64,000 nucleotides of DNA, taken from positions 1 to 64,000 of the forward strand of contig QCBX01000001.1 of NCBI GenBank assembly GCA_003281455.1, in the 5' to 3' direction. Below, piece by piece: positions 6,686-13,915 of the stretch; positions within the stretch are counted from its first letter, which is position 1, and each line of letters begins with the position of its first letter. The translations under genes and the position numbers were made by a program. This DNA is from Prochlorococcus sp. AG-347-J21. Lineage in GTDB: Bacteria > Cyanobacteriota > Cyanobacteriia > PCC-6307 > Cyanobiaceae. The notes beneath the pieces are model-generated. The model was not told the origin of the DNA. It saw only the letters and a program-made list of their open reading frames with translations, and did no database searches.

Positions 6686-7224
6686 GGTTCTTTTTTACAA
6701 AAAGGTTTTGGTCTGCAAAATATCCTTCTTTGAGGCGTTGCTTTAAATGAAACACCACCCTCCGGTTTAGAATATAGGATATATATCCCTGGATCACCTT
6801 CATTATTTAATAATTCGGATAAACTACTTTCAGGGAAAGATGTTGTTGGCTTAATACATATTTTATATGATCCTGGTATTGCCTTTTCCTCGATAGATGG
6901 AATATCCCATTTTTCACGAGGATTATCAGTACATTCAAGACCTGCGATAAAATCTTTATCAATTCCAGGTTCAGAAAGGATTTCTATAACCGAATCAAAA
7001 GTAGTATTTATTTTGTAATTTATGTTCAACATATCAGTTAATTCTTCTTCTTCTTCTTCGAGTACAATGTTATCTTGTTTAGCTCCTTCATTTAAAGGCT
7101 CAAAGAATCTCGAAGTATATTCAATAACCATTACTGTTACTCCTGTGAATGCAGTTAACATTAATATTGCCAGTATTAATTCAGGGAAAGTCATTCCTCT
7201 ATTATTTGTTTTCTGATATTTCAT
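6682..7224 (-). CDS. Type IV prepilin-like (minor pilin) protein
   Basis: 180 residues with a classical class III signal: a short basic leader ending Arg-Gly, then MTFPEL (Gly at -1, Glu at +5) and a ~25-residue hydrophobic helix. PilD would cleave after the Gly and methylate the new N-terminus. The rest is soluble, with Cys at several positions near the C-terminus (CRPKPFC), probably a disulfide loop. Its size and position among assembly genes suit a minor pilin or pseudopilin rather than the major subunit. The stop overlaps the pilM-like start, and the preceding small ORF ends 3 bp before its ATG. Confidence 0.75.
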   Translation of the reverse strand: MKYQKTNNRGMTFPELILAILMLTAFTGVTVMVIEYTSRFFEPLNEGAKQDNIVLEEEEEELTDMLNINYKINTTFDSVIEILSEPGIDKDFIAGLECTDNPREKWDIPSIEEKAIPGSYKICIKPTTSFPESSLSELLNNEGDPGIYILYSKPEGGVSFKATPQRRIFCRPKPFCKKEP

Positions 7225-7227
7225 AAT

Positions 7228-7440
7228 TCATTCATTAAAGTCTAGAAGTTCTATTTCACGATTAATATCATCTATTTTTGTTTGATCCTTAAATCCTGCA
7301 TCTTCTAGAATCATCTTCTCCTCGTCTGTGAGTGGATATTTACCAACTTTATTTAATGCATTATCAGTAATCCTAATAGCAACTAACATTGCCACTGTAG
7401 CCGCAGACATTATTACAGCTCCGACCAATGAAGAAATCAT
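7228..7440 (-). CDS. Small pilin-like membrane protein lacking a prepilin leader
   Basis: 70 residues: an N-terminal hydrophobic helix (SLVGAVIMSAATVAMLVAI), then a charged segment rich in Asp, Glu and Lys. The shape is that of a mature minor pilin, but no Gly-Phe-Thr-Leu leader precedes it. ATG overlaps the upstream TGA as ATGA, so start and coupling are well defined. The frame reads back only a few residues further before a stop. It could be a minor pilin inserted without PilD processing, or a small inner-membrane accessory. No family recognised. Confidence 0.55.
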   Translation of the reverse strand: MISSLVGAVIMSAATVAMLVAIRITDNALNKVGKYPLTDEEKMILEDAGFKDQTKIDDINREIELLDFNE

Positions 7441-7859
7441 ATATTTTCTTCGAAAGGACAGAAACTTGCTTGAACTTCATCATTCAAATAACATGAAAAC
7501 ATCTTGTAAGGATATTCTTTTTTTATTAAAACCCTATGATCATTATTGATACTTGTTAGCACACAAGTATTAGAAAAGAAAAGATTTTCTGAAGGAGGAG
7601 GAGGCCCCTCATCTCTATACATAACTCCATTATTTCCCATTTTTTCTATCACATGCTCACAAACTTTTGAATCTGAATTCGAGTAGTTTTCTAAAATACT
7701 CAAAATCATTTTGTCATATTTTGGTAATTGTGTTTTAAAATAATAATCTCTTTTAAAGGTACTCAGAAACATCATATTATTAATATTATTTCCTATTTTC
7801 ATCATTGCAGAAATTCCTGAAATCATTGCGATTCCAAAGGCTAAATATAGTGCTATCAT
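7437..7859 (-). CDS. Pilin-like membrane protein of the pilus operon, function unknown
   Basis: 140 residues. It begins directly with a hydrophobic stretch (IALYLAFGIAMISGISAM), followed by a soluble domain with Cys pairs near the middle and C-terminus (SKVCEH, NTCVL, SCYL, SFCPF). As in the next gene, the shape is that of a pilin without its leader; a stop lies three codons upstream, so no leader is hidden in frame. It is 36 bp downstream of the pilO-like gene and overlaps the following ORF by 4 bp. Probably a minor pilin or an alignment-complex accessory; this is inferred from position. Confidence 0.55.
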   Translation of the reverse strand: MIALYLAFGIAMISGISAMMKIGNNINNMMFLSTFKRDYYFKTQLPKYDKMILSILENYSNSDSKVCEHVIEKMGNNGVMYRDEGPPPPSENLFFSNTCVLTSINNDHRVLIKKEYPYKMFSCYLNDEVQASFCPFEENI

Positions 7860-7895
7860 TGTAAATTAAGAAAATAAGTCATGTAAAAAATAAAA

Positions 7896-8549
7896 TTAAA
7901 TTACTCCATAAAATATTATTTTCATATCAACTTCTATATTGTTTTTAGGATTATCAATATCACTGTTCTTACTATTAGATTCAATATTAATTTCATCAAT
8001 TAAAATGATATTATCTTGAAATTCAATTTCTCTGAGGAAGGCAAGTAAGTCAATAAATTGAGTTTTAAAAGAGAGATCAATTTCATACTTTCTTGTCCCT
8101 TCGACTAATAGAGGATCTACTTTTAAATTAAATTGATTTTTAATTGTTCTCTTATTATTGATTTTTTTTTCAGCTGCTTTAATTAATTTTTTAGGACTTA
8201 TAGAATCAAATTCTATATTGTTATTCCTACCAATCTCACCTAACTTAGTAAGTAAAGTATCTAATTTTGATTTTCCAGTAATAAGTTCTATTATTTTTAG
8301 TTTTTCTTTATTTAATTTTTCATACTTATCATTAATTATTTTATATTGAGATTTTAAATTATCTAGTTCATTCTTTTTAGTAATTAATCTATCTAATTCC
8401 AAATTAACTTTATTAGATTTAGAGTATTGTGGCATAACAAAAAATATAATCACTAAAATTGATATGAATGAGGATAGAAAAACTGGTATAAAAGTTGCAG
8501 CTTTCTCTGGAGTTAATAAAAATCTTTTTCCCGCCATTGATTTATCCAT
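7896..8549 (-). CDS. pilO: PilO-like pilus alignment-complex protein
   Basis: 217 residues with PilO architecture: a short basic cytoplasmic N-terminus, one transmembrane helix near residues 17-40 (FIPVFLSSFISILVIIFFV), a Lys/Glu/Leu coiled coil near 45-95, then a periplasmic alpha/beta domain. PilO pairs with PilN and bridges the inner-membrane platform to the secretin. Sequence identity to well-studied PilO cannot be judged here; topology and position after the pilN-like gene (13 bp) carry the call. No separate PilP lipoprotein lies in the cluster. Confidence 0.65.
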   Translation of the reverse strand: MDKSMAGKRFLLTPEKAATFIPVFLSSFISILVIIFFVMPQYSKSNKVNLELDRLITKKNELDNLKSQYKIINDKYEKLNKEKLKIIELITGKSKLDTLLTKLGEIGRNNNIEFDSISPKKLIKAAEKKINNKRTIKNQFNLKVDPLLVEGTRKYEIDLSFKTQFIDLLAFLREIEFQDNIILIDEINIESNSKNSDIDNPKNNIEVDMKIIFYGVI

Positions 8550-8561
8550 ATAAAAATTCTA

Positions 8562-9248
8562 TTACAAAGTGTTTTCTATATTTTTTAGAATATTTAATCT
8601 ATTAAATAATCCAAACGAACCAAGTTTAGTTAAATATTTAGAATTAATCTCACTATATTTTGTAGAAACTCTAGTTTTAATATCAACTGAATAATTTTTA
8701 TTTTTCGATTCTTTTTTGGAGATTTTTATTTCCTTTAAATCAAAATCATCAAATTCTACCAAATCAGAATTATCTAAATTAAGTAAAAATGAATTTAGAG
8801 TTCCCAAATATTCTTTACCAGATAATTTCGCTTTCATGAAAAGATTTGCATTCTTTGATGTGTATTCAAAAAGTTGAATATCTTTGGGAATAATTAAGGC
8901 TATTTCCTGAAAAAAAGCAGAACTTGAGCTGATATTAATGATTGCATTTTTTAGATTATTATTAAATGCTGTAATTTCATTAAGTAGTATTGATTCCTTA
9001 TCTAATTTCTTTTCCAATAAATCATATTGATCACTGAATTCTCTTAATTTATCTTTTTTATTTTCTAAAAACTTTATTTTAAAAAGAAATGGAAGTCCGA
9101 GAATTAGAGATATTGTTATTAAAGTAAATCCTGAAATCAATCCTTTTTGAACATATTTCTTAGTATCTATAAAATAGGGTTCTGGTAAATATCCGGCCTT
9201 CCTTCTATTTCGAAGTAAATCTATTTTTTTAATATCGCCTTTTATCAT
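8562..9248 (-). CDS. pilN: PilN-like pilus alignment-complex protein
   Basis: 228 residues: a cytoplasmic N-terminus of about 35 residues containing IDLLRNRRK, close to the PilN motif (I-N-L-L) that docks on PilM. A transmembrane helix follows at roughly 36-56, then a coiled coil and a small periplasmic fold. It sits between the secretin gene and the pilO-like gene, which matches the N-O order in other pilus operons. The conserved Asn of the docking motif is replaced by Asp here, so the match is not perfect. Confidence 0.68.
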   Translation of the reverse strand: MIKGDIKKIDLLRNRRKAGYLPEPYFIDTKKYVQKGLISGFTLITISLILGLPFLFKIKFLENKKDKLREFSDQYDLLEKKLDKESILLNEITAFNNNLKNAIINISSSSAFFQEIALIIPKDIQLFEYTSKNANLFMKAKLSGKEYLGTLNSFLLNLDNSDLVEFDDFDLKEIKISKKESKNKNYSVDIKTRVSTKYSEINSKYLTKLGSFGLFNRLNILKNIENTL

Positions 9249-9264
9249 TAAAAATCAGAAATCA

Positions 9265-11187
9265 TTAATCCTTAAGAATCTTAGGGGTAACTAAGATTAT
9301 TAATTCACTTTTTCTTTTTTGTGTTGCATTACTCCTAAATAAACTTCCAAGAATAGGAATATCTCCTAATACTGGGACTTTAGATGTGTTTACCCCCTCA
9401 GAGTCTTGTAGAACACCAGTAAGAATCAATGTATCTCCATTTTTAACTCTAATAATTCCTGTATCTAATTTCCTAACACTAAGTGTATTCTGTATACCGC
9501 AACCAGTAATCGATACTGATCTTGTAACAGAAGATATTGCTGGACTCAAGGCAAAAGTTACATAACCATTATCATCAATTTTATCAACTTTTGCTCCAAA
9601 TGTTATTCCAGCAGTGTTTGTATCAGCCGTACATGTAGCCACTCCATCAGTGCTACTTTGTGTAAAATTGGTAATAACCTCTTCACCGACTTTTATAAAT
9701 CCCTCATTTTTAAAAGGCCTTCCAATCGTCGCTTCATCTAAACCATCGGCTACAGAAGCAGCTCCAGATGTAAGTATGTTTGGATTTTCGCCAAGTATCA
9801 AAGTTGGTGAGGCTAAAATCTTAGCATTCTCATTTTTTATTTTTGCTTCTAACCAATTAGTAAATTTACCTTCCATCAAACCACCGGTATCTAAAATATT
9901 TGGGATATTTGTTGTTGTTGGAGGAGAGTTAGGAGGCTCCATATTACCAATTCCTATCCCTAAACCACTGTTATTAATAACTCTTGTATCTCCTGTTCGT
10001 AGTTCAAGTACATTATTTTTTATATCAGATTTAGTCAAAGTCACATCAATTATTTTTATTGTCAATGCTACTTGTCTGTGCCTTACATCCAATGATTTTA
10101 TATATTTTTCTGCAGTTCTCACAAGATCTTTGGATCCTATTAAAGTTATAGTTTGCAATCTTAAATCAGCTGTTCCAAGCAACCCAGATAACGGACCTTT
10201 TGAGAGACTATATGTCTCTATTAACTCGTCATCTAATTCTTTTTTATTAAGATAACTATCATTAACTTCTGTTCCGTCAATAGAACCACTAACAAGCATA
10301 ACTTTTGATATTGTTGCTCCTAATGTTGAGAGATAATCTGCGACTGAAGCAGCATTAACCTGATTGAGTCTATAAGTTTTAGAAAATTTTGGTTTTAAAC
10401 TCTTATTTAATATATTTTTGCCGATAAAAATAATGTTTTTCTCAAGAGTTGCCTGCAAATTTGCAGAAAGCAAAATACTATTAAAAACATCAGAAATATC
10501 TTGTTCATTAAATGTGGCGGTGATTGTACTATCTAAATTTTTTTTATTTCCTTTATCGTTTTCATCAATTATGACCATTCCATAATTTCCCAATTTTGCA
10601 ATGAACTTAAGAGTTTCAATGGAATCAGCTCCTTTTAAATTTAGAGTTATTTTAGGTCCAGCTAATTTTATGTATCCTCTAGATGGGAAGGTAAATTCAC
10701 TAGTAGAAATTTTACTGCGAGAGGGCAATGGTAAATTATTCAGAATATCTTCTTTTTTATTTTTATAGATAATTTGTTTTTTACTTTTAGGTTTTATATC
10801 AGAATTTTCATTTGTCTCTATTTTTGGCTGATTTATTTCCCCTCTATTAATAACTTCATTCTTTGGCAATTCTTTTTTAAGGTTTTTCATCGGAACTTGA
10901 TCATTTGGCTCAAAAAAGTTATCAATTTCATTTGGACTAAAAGTTTCCTCTACAAATTTCTCAAGCATTTCTGCTTCCTTAATAAGCCTCTGATCATTAT
11001 TAATAGATTTATTAACACTTGAGATATAAAGTTCGTCATTATTTTTATTTCGAGTTATCTTCGTATTTTGATTATTTAAGTTTACTTTCCTGAAAGTAAA
11101 TGCATTTGCACTAATTAAGAATTGATTAAAAATCAAAAATAAATAAATAACACTTTTACTTTTTTTAAATTTTAAAAAATTTCTCAT
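9265..11187 (-). CDS. pilQ: Outer-membrane secretin PilQ (GspD/PilQ family)
   Basis: 640 residues. An N-terminal hydrophobic segment (about 14-30) ending SANAF serves as signal peptide. A charged, Asn/Lys-rich linker follows to ~150, then an STN-like domain near 180-255 and the C-terminal secretin barrel domain. The secretin signature VPVLGDIPILGSLFR lies near residue 610, followed by SELIILVTPKIL. It forms the gated outer-membrane pore for the pilus. There is no N-terminal AMIN domain like those in many PilQ proteins, so it resembles a shortened PilQ or a GspD. PilN, PilO and PilT-type neighbours favour the pilus role. Confidence 0.85.
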   Translation of the reverse strand: MRNFLKFKKSKSVIYLFLIFNQFLISANAFTFRKVNLNNQNTKITRNKNNDELYISSVNKSINNDQRLIKEAEMLEKFVEETFSPNEIDNFFEPNDQVPMKNLKKELPKNEVINRGEINQPKIETNENSDIKPKSKKQIIYKNKKEDILNNLPLPSRSKISTSEFTFPSRGYIKLAGPKITLNLKGADSIETLKFIAKLGNYGMVIIDENDKGNKKNLDSTITATFNEQDISDVFNSILLSANLQATLEKNIIFIGKNILNKSLKPKFSKTYRLNQVNAASVADYLSTLGATISKVMLVSGSIDGTEVNDSYLNKKELDDELIETYSLSKGPLSGLLGTADLRLQTITLIGSKDLVRTAEKYIKSLDVRHRQVALTIKIIDVTLTKSDIKNNVLELRTGDTRVINNSGLGIGIGNMEPPNSPPTTTNIPNILDTGGLMEGKFTNWLEAKIKNENAKILASPTLILGENPNILTSGAASVADGLDEATIGRPFKNEGFIKVGEEVITNFTQSSTDGVATCTADTNTAGITFGAKVDKIDDNGYVTFALSPAISSVTRSVSITGCGIQNTLSVRKLDTGIIRVKNGDTLILTGVLQDSEGVNTSKVPVLGDIPILGSLFRSNATQKRKSELIILVTPKILKD

Positions 11188-11222
11188 AATTAAACTTTAT
11201 AATTATTTCACTAATTAAATAT

Positions 11223-11585
11223 TTATTTTTTCAGATTATTATGATATTCATTAAATATCATATCATTTAACTTTAATCTATAAATTGATCGTAAAGCATC
11301 AGAATCATTAATGATATTTAAATCTGGATAGTAACTTGATTTTGGTAGATTAGTTTTTAACCCAAAAAATGTTTTTAATTGACCATCTAAACTATCGTAT
11401 TTCCAATAAGGTATTGAATTTTGAAAATATGCTTGATCAAAATCATAGTTTTTTTGATTTTCAATAGGATGAATTTTATTTTCAGATGATAAAGATTTTA
11501 AACTATTCATTAATAGAAAAAATCCAAACAAAAAAAAGTAATATCTATTTCTTTTTGAATGAGCTATTTTCTTAAAAAATTCCAT
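11223..11585 (-). CDS. Small membrane-anchored protein heading the pilQ operon, unknown
   Basis: 120 residues: a basic N-terminus, one hydrophobic segment at about 13-30 (YYFFLFGFFLLMNSL) and a soluble remainder rich in Asn, Asp and Tyr. It lies 35 bp upstream of the secretin gene on the same strand, so it is probably first in the operon. Its place and topology (single anchor, periplasmic tail) would suit a PilP-like secretin partner, but no PilP motif or lipobox is visible. Function unknown. Confidence 0.55.
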   Translation of the reverse strand: MEFFKKIAHSKRNRYYFFLFGFFLLMNSLKSLSSENKIHPIENQKNYDFDQAYFQNSIPYWKYDSLDGQLKTFFGLKTNLPKSSYYPDLNIINDSDALRSIYRLKLNDMIFNEYHNNLKK

Positions 11586-12439: not shown

Positions 12440-12656
12440 TTTTTTTTTAATTTATATAGTACATATTAAATTTTCAAAGATTATATGATTTCAAATAACT
12501 TTCTATATTCTGTTAATTAAAATTTTAAAAAACCTTTTGTGGATTTGTCCAATGTTTTTGAGTTTCTAATCTGAAAATTAAATTTATTTATTCTTCTAGG
12601 GATCTCTTGTTAATATAACTGGAAAAATTTTTACATAAAATACAACCAACCTTTGA

Positions 12657-12662
12657 TATAAT
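12657..12662 (+). promoter_or_regulatory. -10 element of the tRNA-Ser promoter
   Basis: A perfect TATAAT lies 28 bases before the tRNA 5' end. No good -35 box sits 16-18 bases upstream; the nearest candidate, TTTACA at 12630, is 21 bases away. Plausible promoter by position only. Confidence 0.4.
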
Positions 12663-12690
12663 GTAAAAGCAAAATTTAATATTTTCACCT

Positions 12691-12777
12691 GGAGGGGTGG
12701 TCGAGTGGTTTAAGGCTCTAGTCTTGAAAACTAGCGTGTCTGCAAGGGCACCGTGGGTTCGAATCCCACCCCCTCCG
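12691..12777 (+). tRNA. tRNA-Ser (anticodon UGA)
   Basis: 87 nt. A 7-bp acceptor stem (GGAGGGG with CCCCTCC) is followed by a D arm with the TGGTTTAAGG loop and an anticodon stem CTAGT/ACTAG. The 7-base loop CTTGAAA carries anticodon TGA. A long class II variable arm follows, typical of serine tRNA, then the T arm GTGGG-TTCGAAT-CCCAC and discriminator G. CCA is not encoded. A diverged copy of its 3' 60 nt lies at 13571-13630. Confidence 0.96.
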
Positions 12778-12797
12778 TTTCTATAACTAACTTTATT

Positions 12798-12822
12798 AAA
12801 ACTATTCCTGAGGGAGTTTTTT
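12798..12822 (+). terminator. Weak hairpin plus T-run after tRNA-Ser
   Basis: AAAACT and AGTTTT form a stem, with CC/GG pairs around a TGA loop and a two-base bulge, followed by TT. It lies 20 bases after the tRNA. Stability is low, so this is tentative. Confidence 0.35.
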
Positions 12823-12866
12823 ATTCCTCATTATTTTCGATCATTTTTCACAAGATTTCGCGTAAT

Positions 12867-12908
12867 TTCACATAATTAGGTGAAGAAAAGTGGCACAGAT
12901 TCGGCACA
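12867..12908. other. 18-bp near-palindrome followed by GGCACA direct repeats
   Basis: 12867-12884 is a near-perfect palindrome: TTCAC and GTGAA arms around TAATTA, with one mismatched pair. GGCACA follows at 12892-12897 and again at 12903-12908, 11 bp apart. This lies between tRNA-Ser and its duplicated 3' fragment. Candidate binding sites for a recombinase or regulator; no protein is assigned. Confidence 0.35.
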
Positions 12909-12968
12909 ACTAAATTAGAAAAATTAGGTTGACAATCAATCTAAAATAGGAAAAATAGTTTATTTGTT

Positions 12969-13451
12969 TTGAAAAAATTTTTTATATTAATCGCAGGCAA
13001 TTTACTATTAGCTTGTAACATTCCATTAGTTTATTCTAATGAATCTGATTTGAATTATTTTTTGAAAAATAATGAAGCAATTAAATTAATTAATGAGGGG
13101 AAAATTTCTGAGGGAGAAAAAAAATGTGATGAAATGATAGAAATGTATCCAGAAGGAAAATTAGGATACTTATGTAAAGGATCTTCCTTGCTTATTTCAG
13201 GGCTTGATAACCGAAAAGAAGAGGCTCTTAAAAATTTTACTCAAGCAATTGAAATAGACCCTGAGTATTACGAGGCATATTTTTTAAGAGGAATTTTGCA
13301 ATTTTCAATGGCTAGAAAAAGTATGTCAAAAATAGATAGAAATGCATGTAAAGATATTAAAAAAGCTTATTCAAATGGGTATCAATTTGCAATAGATTAC
13401 GTAAAAAATAATAAGTCTTTTTTAAAAAGGGATAAATGCTTTGGCTTTTAA
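12969..13451 (+). CDS. Exported TPR-repeat protein
   Basis: 160 residues starting at TTG (KKFFILIAGNLLLAC). The N-terminus is a signal peptide. A Cys in LLAC fits a weak lipobox, while cleavage after VYS would give a soluble periplasmic protein. Two tetratricopeptide-like repeats follow, the clearest near residues 80-115 (ALKNFTQAIEIDPEYYEAYFLRG). Such proteins act as protein-binding scaffolds. The gene lies between the tRNA-Ser and the diverged tRNA fragment, so it may be cargo of a former integrative element. Confidence 0.65.
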   Translation: MKKFFILIAGNLLLACNIPLVYSNESDLNYFLKNNEAIKLINEGKISEGEKKCDEMIEMYPEGKLGYLCKGSSLLISGLDNRKEEALKNFTQAIEIDPEYYEAYFLRGILQFSMARKSMSKIDRNACKDIKKAYSNGYQFAIDYVKNNKSFLKRDKCFGF

Positions 13452-13570
13452 GGGAACTTATGCAACATTAATAAGCCTATTTTTAAACGATAATCAAAAT
13501 CTAAATTGGCAAAATTTTGGCAATTATGTTTCACTAAACCACTAAACCCATTGCAATAACTTAAATCCTA

Positions 13571-13630
13571 CTAGGCTTGAAAACTAGCGTATCTGCAAGG
13601 GTACGGTGGGCTCGAATCCCACCACCTCCG
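13571..13630 (+). repeat. Diverged 3' half of tRNA-Ser (att-like duplication)
   Basis: These 60 bases match 12718-12777 of the intact tRNA-Ser(UGA) at 54 of 60 positions, covering the anticodon stem-loop, variable arm, T arm and acceptor 3' strand through the final G. The 5' half of the tRNA is absent, so this is not a functional tRNA. A partial tRNA 3' end in direct orientation is the usual scar of tyrosine-recombinase integration at a tRNA gene. The six mismatches show it is old or came with the element. Confidence 0.85.
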
Positions 13631-13714
13631 TTCTAGTAAAATCAACTTAAATTCAACCGAATAATATAAACGCCTTTTTGATACGTCTTTGTTATTATAA
13701 GTTTTATTTGATTT

Positions 13715-13915
13715 ATGAATAAAGGATTCGCCACAGATAATTTAATATCCAAAAAATCGAAAAAAAAAAATGTTTCAAATGAACCTCAAGGAAGATTAAT
13801 ATCTTGGTCTCCTTGGCCACCAGCTAATTTTCAGACAAGATATCCTGCTTTCCCTTTTGTTCTAACAATATTAATCATAGTAATCGGGCAATGGTATTTA
13901 TCTCTACTAAGGTAA
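13715..13915 (+). CDS. Small single-span membrane protein, unknown
   Basis: 66 residues: a basic, Lys-rich N-terminus, a Trp/Pro-rich segment (SWSPWPPANF) and one C-terminal transmembrane helix near 46-64. The layout resembles small thylakoid proteins, but the Glu/Asn/Arg chlorophyll-binding motif of high-light-inducible proteins is absent. It starts 84 bp after the tRNA fragment. No family recognised. Confidence 0.55.
   Translation: MNKGFATDNLISKKSKKKNVSNEPQGRLISWSPWPPANFQTRYPAFPFVLTILIIVIGQWYLSLLR

Follow-up and report, generated by a model that had tools for sequence, protein, structure and literature searches.

The window, a stretch of 64,000 nucleotides from the genome of Prochlorococcus sp. 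AG-347-J21, carries a functional tRNA-Ser(UGA) gene that is followed, in the same orientation, by a second copy of its own 3' part (Table 1). The two copies (12,718–12,779 and 13,571–13,632) are identical at 56 of 62 nucleotides, and their starts lie 853 bp apart. A preliminary description of this DNA had reported a 54/60 match 850 bp downstream that begins at the anticodon stem; the repeat was borne out, and the alignment indeed places the start of the displaced copy in the 5' strand of the anticodon stem. The runner-up match to the 62-nt repeat anywhere in the 64 kb was 30/62, and the best that 200 shuffled queries attained was 33. In the genome, which is 93% complete, only one full tRNA-Ser(UGA) gene was found; the remaining matches were the displaced copy, a 70% tRNA-like match, and short pieces. 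The contig ends where the window starts, hence the upstream side of the tRNA could be followed for 12.7 kb.

Table 1. Features in and around the tRNA-Ser(UGA) gene of the window.
Feature	Position	Strand	Basis or remark
Promoter region of the tRNA, 62% similar to type B of other strains	12630..12690	+	below class cut-off
Functional tRNA-Ser(UGA)	12691..12778	+	ARAGORN 12690-12778; Rfam 12691-12777
Core, anticodon stem-loop CTAGT-CTTGAAA-ACTAG	12718..12734	+	element/host sequence switch in relatives' 3' and 5' fragments
Integrated element, spanning 853 bp between its two crossovers	12723..13582	+	repeat alignment, empty-site comparison, alleles
Left arm-type pair AGTGGCACAGATTCGGCACA, 11-bp spacing	12889..12908	+	repeat and genus-wide motif searches
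Promoter-like box TTGACAATCAATCTAAAAT ahead of cargo gene	12929..12947	+	found at a similar offset in several sister elements; function presumed
Cargo gene, 160-aa protein with TPR repeats, TTG start	12969..13451	+	ORF list, domain search
Right arm-type pair TTGGCAAAATTTTGGCAA	13506..13523	+	differs from best left-right 20-mer match
Original 3' end of the tRNA, displaced (attR side; A49/T60 allele)	13571..13632	+	repeat alignment, allele comparison
Native downstream flank, displaced along with the fragment	13633..13714	+	equals post-tRNA flank of empty-site strains
First conserved downstream gene (66 aa), the anchor	13715..13915	+	ORF list, cross-strain matches

Between the two copies lies a single gene, the cargo gene of Table 1. 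No other ORF of at least 60 aa was found between 12,780 and 13,570, and because the TPR gene is the sole ORF of that size, the element lacks an integrase; the ORF list thereby confirmed the earlier statement that the enclosed DNA holds one TPR gene and no integrase. The N-terminus of the protein looks by eye like a signal peptide. The protein is therefore probably exported, and its role as exported cargo is what we deduce from these features. In the window, L033, L061, L067, L086, and L123, a box of the form TTGACA-N7-TAAAAT, or near it, lies ~240 nt beyond the start of the tRNA, and the box also occurs elsewhere; the position of its -10 part came from a tie-break favouring 38 nt and carries no evidential weight.

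We then compared the locus across the genus, in which a tRNA query found matches in 197 of 200 genomes. The comparison set comprised 99 loci, from 98 other genomes and the window; 99 stretches had been taken, and L032 was left out since it holds no full tRNA. Many of the compared genomes are incomplete single-cell assemblies, and second tRNA-like matches in L119 and L124 were left uncounted. The preliminary description had reasoned that the same fragment and flanks in all strains, at constant length, would argue against ongoing element activity. Instead, the distance from the tRNA to the anchor gene, measured in 92 loci, was 160–241 nt in 35 and reached ~12 kb in others (up to 250 nt, 35 loci; 251–600 nt, 5; 601–2000 nt, 29; 2–5 kb, 15; more than 5 kb, 8). 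Two strains whose flanks are 98.2% identical over 2.5 kb nevertheless differ in occupancy (161 nt in L079 vs 3043 nt in L097). Downstream 3' fragments were present at 20 of the 99 loci, a count biased upward because the first eight loci (L031–L038) were picked for visible fragments and the others came, non-randomly, from the listing of tRNA matches; upstream 5' fragments were present at 35, and both kinds at 10.

In empty loci (anchor within 250 nt, n = 35, two of which, L048 and L120, have element-like remains), the intact tRNA is followed by the same flank that comes after the displaced copy in the window. Among the 12 occupied loci with the anchor no more than 400 nt from the last displaced fragment, 11 show this native flank, the window included, while in the twelfth, L035, remains of another element precede it. 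The window thus has the arrangement expected of a tRNA island, with a restored tRNA, a displaced end in the same orientation, and native flank beyond the fragment, but it lacks the integrase gene that such an island carries. These comparisons bear out the insertion of the tyrosine-recombinase type that had been proposed at this tRNA. Displaced copies in several strains are 98–100% identical. Walking the breakpoints between empty and occupied loci worked in two of 13 pairs (L097/L079 and L043/L070); indels defeated it in the remaining pairs, whose flanks were judged by eye. We also considered phage tRNA genes as the source of the repeat and rejected them, as they leave the displaced copy with its native flank unexplained. 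Among the 20 of 65 records listed, the best cyanophage tRNA-Ser genes were 88–89% identical. Full-length tRNA-Ser genes of 97.7% identity occur on three viral contigs (L160, L161, and L164), where they sit in phage tRNA clusters without a displaced fragment.

Where element sequence gives way to host sequence could be read from the relatives. Left of the anticodon loop, displaced 3' copies differ between elements, while right of it they follow the tRNA; in upstream 5' fragments, the order of element and tRNA is reversed. This pattern places the crossover in or beside CTTGAAA, and presumably inside this 7-nt loop (12,723–12,729), which contains the anticodon. Natural alleles of the tRNA offered a further marker. 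Positions 49 and 60, which pair and covary in the variable arm, are G49/C60 in 70 of the 99 loci and A49/T60 in 29. In the window, the functional copy has G49/C60 and the displaced copy A49/T60, therefore the incoming element supplied a different 3' half. Because the displaced copy has the other natural allele at two covarying variable-arm bases, the working tRNA is a chimera, with a 3' half supplied by the element and a 5' half that is either native or derived from an earlier upstream element. The same swap was seen in L059 and L067, and the reverse swap in L047; among 18 readable fragments free of indels, four differ in allele, 13 are the same on both sides, and L057 differs by one base.

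The six differences between the two copies in the window comprise one in the element-derived half of the core, two that make up the covarying allele, and three of decay type. Since only three of the six look like decay, the scar is younger than its raw identity implies. The preliminary description had called it old and decayed, which understates its condition. The arm-type repeats can be recognized at both ends, although the right pair is degenerate and excision may have been lost; the enclosed gene retains an open reading frame, and the left end is shared with sister elements whose cargo differs.

The arm-type pairs start ~110 nt past the tRNA and ~65 nt ahead of the displaced fragment. A consensus of the left and right pairs, derived from just these two, had no other match in the 64 kb and none in 100 shuffles. 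Across elements, GC-containing 8-mers repeated at exactly 11 bp marked 11 of 21 right ends, 10 of 20 left ends, and 5 of 279 control cargo stretches; about half of the ends on either side have no such pair, those at the left of L036 and L068 among them. Left and right ends were more alike within than between elements (mean 15.75 vs 14.42 of 20; 20 elements, permutation p = 1e-4), and the window ranked first in this comparison, by way of an AT-rich 20-mer distinct from its arm pair. In nine of the 20 elements (L035, L038, L047, L057, L068, L091, L092, L100, and L124), the element's own right end fell outside the top two. Such elements without a clear left-right match are what a plain tandem duplication might leave behind, or homologous recombination of one tRNA copy with another, neither of which involves a site-specific step, and tRNA fragments can be duplicated by chance. 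We nevertheless find this origin hardly credible for the window, since the edges of the fragments gather at the anticodon stem-loop, the paired arm repeats have fixed positions, and the native flank stays with the displaced copy.

The left pair of the window, which we refer to as the GGCACA type, had nine matches in 265 genus genomes, its own included, against none for a reversed control. All nine adjoin a tRNA-Ser 3' end, seven of them functional and two displaced (one of the latter, L306, on a weak 26-nt match of 77%). An arm pair beside a displaced tRNA end (n = 2) suggests that elements are stacked. A second pair type had four matches in 264 genomes and none for its reversed control, and all four lie beside a functional tRNA; this type also occurs on a satellite contig, L295, where it stands between the tRNA and a recombinase gene. 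We also noted that on two viral contigs (L312 and L313), from phages unrelated to the tRNA-Ser locus, a pair of the GGCACA type adjoins a gene with phage-integrase domains, which suggests that this arm-site motif is widespread.

The cargo behind these shared ends differs between elements. In the seven elements with a GGCACA left end, mean identity was 82% from the tRNA to the arms, 56% over the next 70 nt, and 31–32% in the cargo; six of the seven have distinct open first ORFs 34–101 nt past the arms, and L309 has none. Thirteen of the 20 first elements of the 3' type are no longer than 1.5 kb and hold either one or two ORFs of at least 55 aa. Reuse of the site, as had been suspected, is thus well supported: the length of the insert differs widely among strains, and unrelated cargo is bounded by shared ends. 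Proteins whose start is close to MKRLLLPLLAALALPTAVNA are encoded by six elements (L031, L034, L059, L086, L089, and L099), and TPR matches were found in two of these proteins (L031 and L099), as in the 160-aa protein of the window. The leader near MKRLLLPLLAALALPTAVNA heads different cargo in these six and in L167 (L166 and L167 were covered in part), and looks like one export leader with many fusions.

A different history would be that a satellite or tycheposon lost its integrase and other genes here, leaving one cargo gene, now immobile, between attL and attR: a CIME (cis-mobilizable element) formed by decay. The missing integrase, the three decay-type substitutions, and the degenerate right pair would all fit, passages of PMC5704250 describe CIMEs as arising in this way, and some neighbours are clearly remnants, such as L315, where a left end leads up to the anchor without any cargo gene in between. 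Independent deletions would, however, have had to stop at about one common point to yield so many elements of up to 1.5 kb with one or two ORFs, and decay does not readily account for different open genes set closely behind the same left end in six of seven cases. Decay by deletion is thus rather unlikely, if still the most serious competitor. We consider it probable that 12,723–13,582 is instead a small, non-autonomous, integrase-free cargo element that was moved in trans at a tRNA hotspot used from two sides.

We next looked for recombinases that might act on such ends. A satellite contig, L295 (the same as L162), has a functional tRNA, a GTGGCTCAC pair 138 nt further on, and a 381-aa tyrosine recombinase another 25 nt downstream. 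The left end of the window is built like that of this contig, and L086 and L059 carry the same GTGGCTCAC pair, or one a single base off, with no integrase between tRNA and fragment. Residues R244, K266, R333, H356, and Y365 are invariant in seven members of the recombinase family, and D331 is present where the usual tyrosine-recombinase motif has its first histidine. A structural model of the enzyme (mean pLDDT 81, pTM 0.50) had full-length lambda integrase as its best match, and the protein scores as an integrase with the PHROGs profiles and not with those of Pfam. Profile PF00589 likewise missed recombinases of 380–415 aa, hence its absence alone was not used as evidence; near the tRNA, among the matches listed, it hit only short proteins of 190–217 aa, in three genomes.

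Close relatives of the L295 enzyme were limited to a fragment at a contig end in G252 (90%) and, among viral contigs, to its own source; such a helper would therefore be rare or transient in cells. The genome of the window encodes no close relative, the best being a 28%-identical protein of 389 aa. This tyrosine recombinase, at G000:C1:140789-141904, is of a kind common to most of the congeners listed. A helper for the exact GGCACA pair of the window was sought in 265 genus genomes and in viral contigs, and no autonomous element with that pair was found in the genus. Given a rare close helper and only a 28% relative in the same genome, movement in trans is something we infer, and the element may still be mobile today.

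The phage contig L163 (IMGVR_UViG_3300030451_002253; 46.9 kb), of the T7-like cyanophage type, encodes a family A DNA polymerase and an integrase 36–40% identical to those of P-SSP7 and S-CBP1. Beside the integrase lies an attP of 59 nt that is 98% identical to tRNA-Ser(UGA); this region has the reverse-complement coordinates 7026-8084. Two host elements match the attP region, core included: L047 at 82% over 181 nt and L091 at 93% over 153 nt. A T7-like cyanophage integrase could on these grounds have made the insertion in the window as well, but the arms and flanks of the window resemble by eye the GGCACA family and not the phage flank, and we hold this source to be quite improbable. T7-like cyanophage sites published in the parts of PMC8776855 available to us all match the first half of tRNA-Leu; L163 is like them in having a tRNA attP beside an integrase, and differs in that the match is to the 3' part of tRNA-Ser(UGA). 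The elements of L047 and L091 also carry, 0.2–2.2 kb downstream of the tRNA, related genes for a T2SSE-type (pilus/secretion) ATPase, assigned by domain match in L047 and by eye in L091, and no integrase.

The tRNA is also used from its upstream side. At 17 of the 99 loci, a recombinase-like gene (24–97% identity to the L295 family) lies directly upstream of the tRNA. In L165, a 5' fragment and the tRNA enclose an element of ~8.1 kb that has two recombinases and matches to a primase-polymerase, a VapE-like helicase, an excisionase, and, weakly, a terminase small subunit. Upstream insertions replace the tRNA promoter and the 5' half. Promoter type A was taken as native because the upstream anchor is then mostly ~340–380 nt away, and a 5' fragment was found at one of 27 loci with type A, vs 34 of the 72 others (Fisher p = 3e-5). 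Promoter classes were set by a similarity cut-off that leaves nine loci outside, among them the window, whose promoter region is a possible mark of an earlier upstream insertion. In 19 of the 99 loci, a unit of ~166 nt stands upstream of the tRNA (for example, -167 to -1 in L031) that consists of a 5' tRNA fragment, a CAGTTCCGGATCAGTTCCGA-type arm pair, and the tRNA promoter, with no cargo, and is perhaps a solo att remnant. Further upstream in the window, 7896–11,585 carries secretin, PilN-like, and PilO-like genes. The secretin had tblastn matches in three of the 98 other stretches (L049, L062, and L113), which reach at most ~7 kb upstream; its rarity there indicates that the upstream side is variable too.

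We propose the following course of events. As a circle, the element would have carried an attP that combined its own copy of the anticodon-loop core with the 3' half of tRNA-Ser, a terminator-like stretch, and the two arm-type pairs. A tyrosine recombinase acting in trans, encoded by a satellite or phage that uses the same att family, would have crossed over within the 7-bp anticodon loop. The host tRNA thereby gained a new 3' half, with the original 3' end and the native flank pushed 853 bp downstream, and the acquired cargo is one gene with a promoter-like box for the probably exported TPR protein. Other elements enter at this loop from the upstream side, where they exchange the promoter and the 5' half. 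Of this course, the sequences show the integration, the place of the crossover, the chimeric tRNA, the end repeats, left ends shared by different cargo, and stacking. A broader and more tentative reading, which we put at somewhat worse than even, is that tRNA-Ser(UGA) serves as a cassette port at which recombinases of satellites and phages, acting in trans, insert and exchange cassettes of one or two genes, many of them for exported proteins, on both sides. If so, the promoter and both tRNA halves would be renewed by incoming elements, an integron-like arrangement built on a tRNA.

Integron cassettes are recognized by an attC site and an integron integrase. The elements described here resemble them in being small, in holding about one gene, and in joining conserved ends to exchangeable cargo, but differ from them in their tRNA target, in candidate recombinases of satellite or phage type, and in a promoter-like box of their own. 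Tycheposons, in the 2023 paper in Cell, reportedly carry a deep-branching tyrosine recombinase and other hallmark genes. They are 4–200 kb long and have a recombinase according to passages of PMC10872708. The preliminary description had brought in tycheposons, and the tRNA border agrees with that, whereas the size of 853 bp and the absent recombinase do not; the host, the presence of cargo, and relatives at the same tRNA with satellite genes and recombinases outside the usual Pfam profile are further points of likeness. Phage satellites differ in having an integrase, a primase/helicase, and a terminase small subunit. None of these is present in the window element; the upstream element of L165 has matches to each, if weakly for the terminase.

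CIMEs keep attL and attR and lack integration genes (passages of PMC5704250), and Dehalococcoides islands at ssrA are stacked at one target without an integration module (passages of PMC3146451). The window element resembles them in that it keeps attL and attR, as judged from sequence, has no integration or transfer genes, and belongs to insertions that stack at one target gene, as in tandem accretion at attR. By contrast, the elements here have one or two genes, are mostly shorter than 2 kb, share ends with changing cargo, show no conjugative parent, were likely moved in trans, and use the target from both sides. The Islander collection, in the sections of PMC4383910 available to us, counts 3760 islands with 3' fragments and 159 with 5' fragments. 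Its class A, with att in the anticodon loop, has a displaced fragment and a restored tRNA as here, whereas 10 of our 99 loci combine the 5' and the 3' type of fragment at a single tRNA. Islander drops candidates that are below 2 kb or have no integrase (same sections), so elements like that of the window fall outside the catalogue. Islands in tRNA genes with 3' or, rarely, 5' fragments, CIMEs, stacking, and tycheposons are thus already known from these sources (PMC4383910, PMC5704250, PMC3146451, PMC10872708, each in part). Use of a tRNA from two sides together with cargo units below 2 kb that have helper-type ends did not appear in the literature searched, and the primary tycheposon paper may have described them.

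If recombinases of satellites or phages move such elements in trans, they would offer a plausible route for exchanging genes one at a time. Prochlorococcus has small genomes and a large flexible gene pool, and large islands explain the gain of single genes poorly. At this locus, mobile DNA keeps replacing the promoter and the halves of a tRNA that was found once in the genome, with the anticodon protected inside the crossover region. The proposal predicts circular junctions, and a match between recombinases and elements by arm-site specificity.

Lastly, the locus appears twice in L119 (G096:C15), as a long inverted repeat that is probably a chimera of single-cell amplification. In the pairs L097/L079 and L043/L070, what the two borders of the element have in common is only ~12 nt from the 3' end of the tRNA (CACCCCCTCCGT), which by sequence we class as a third att type; this class of element has other arm pairs, such as ACTGGGGGATTTACTGTGGGATT.
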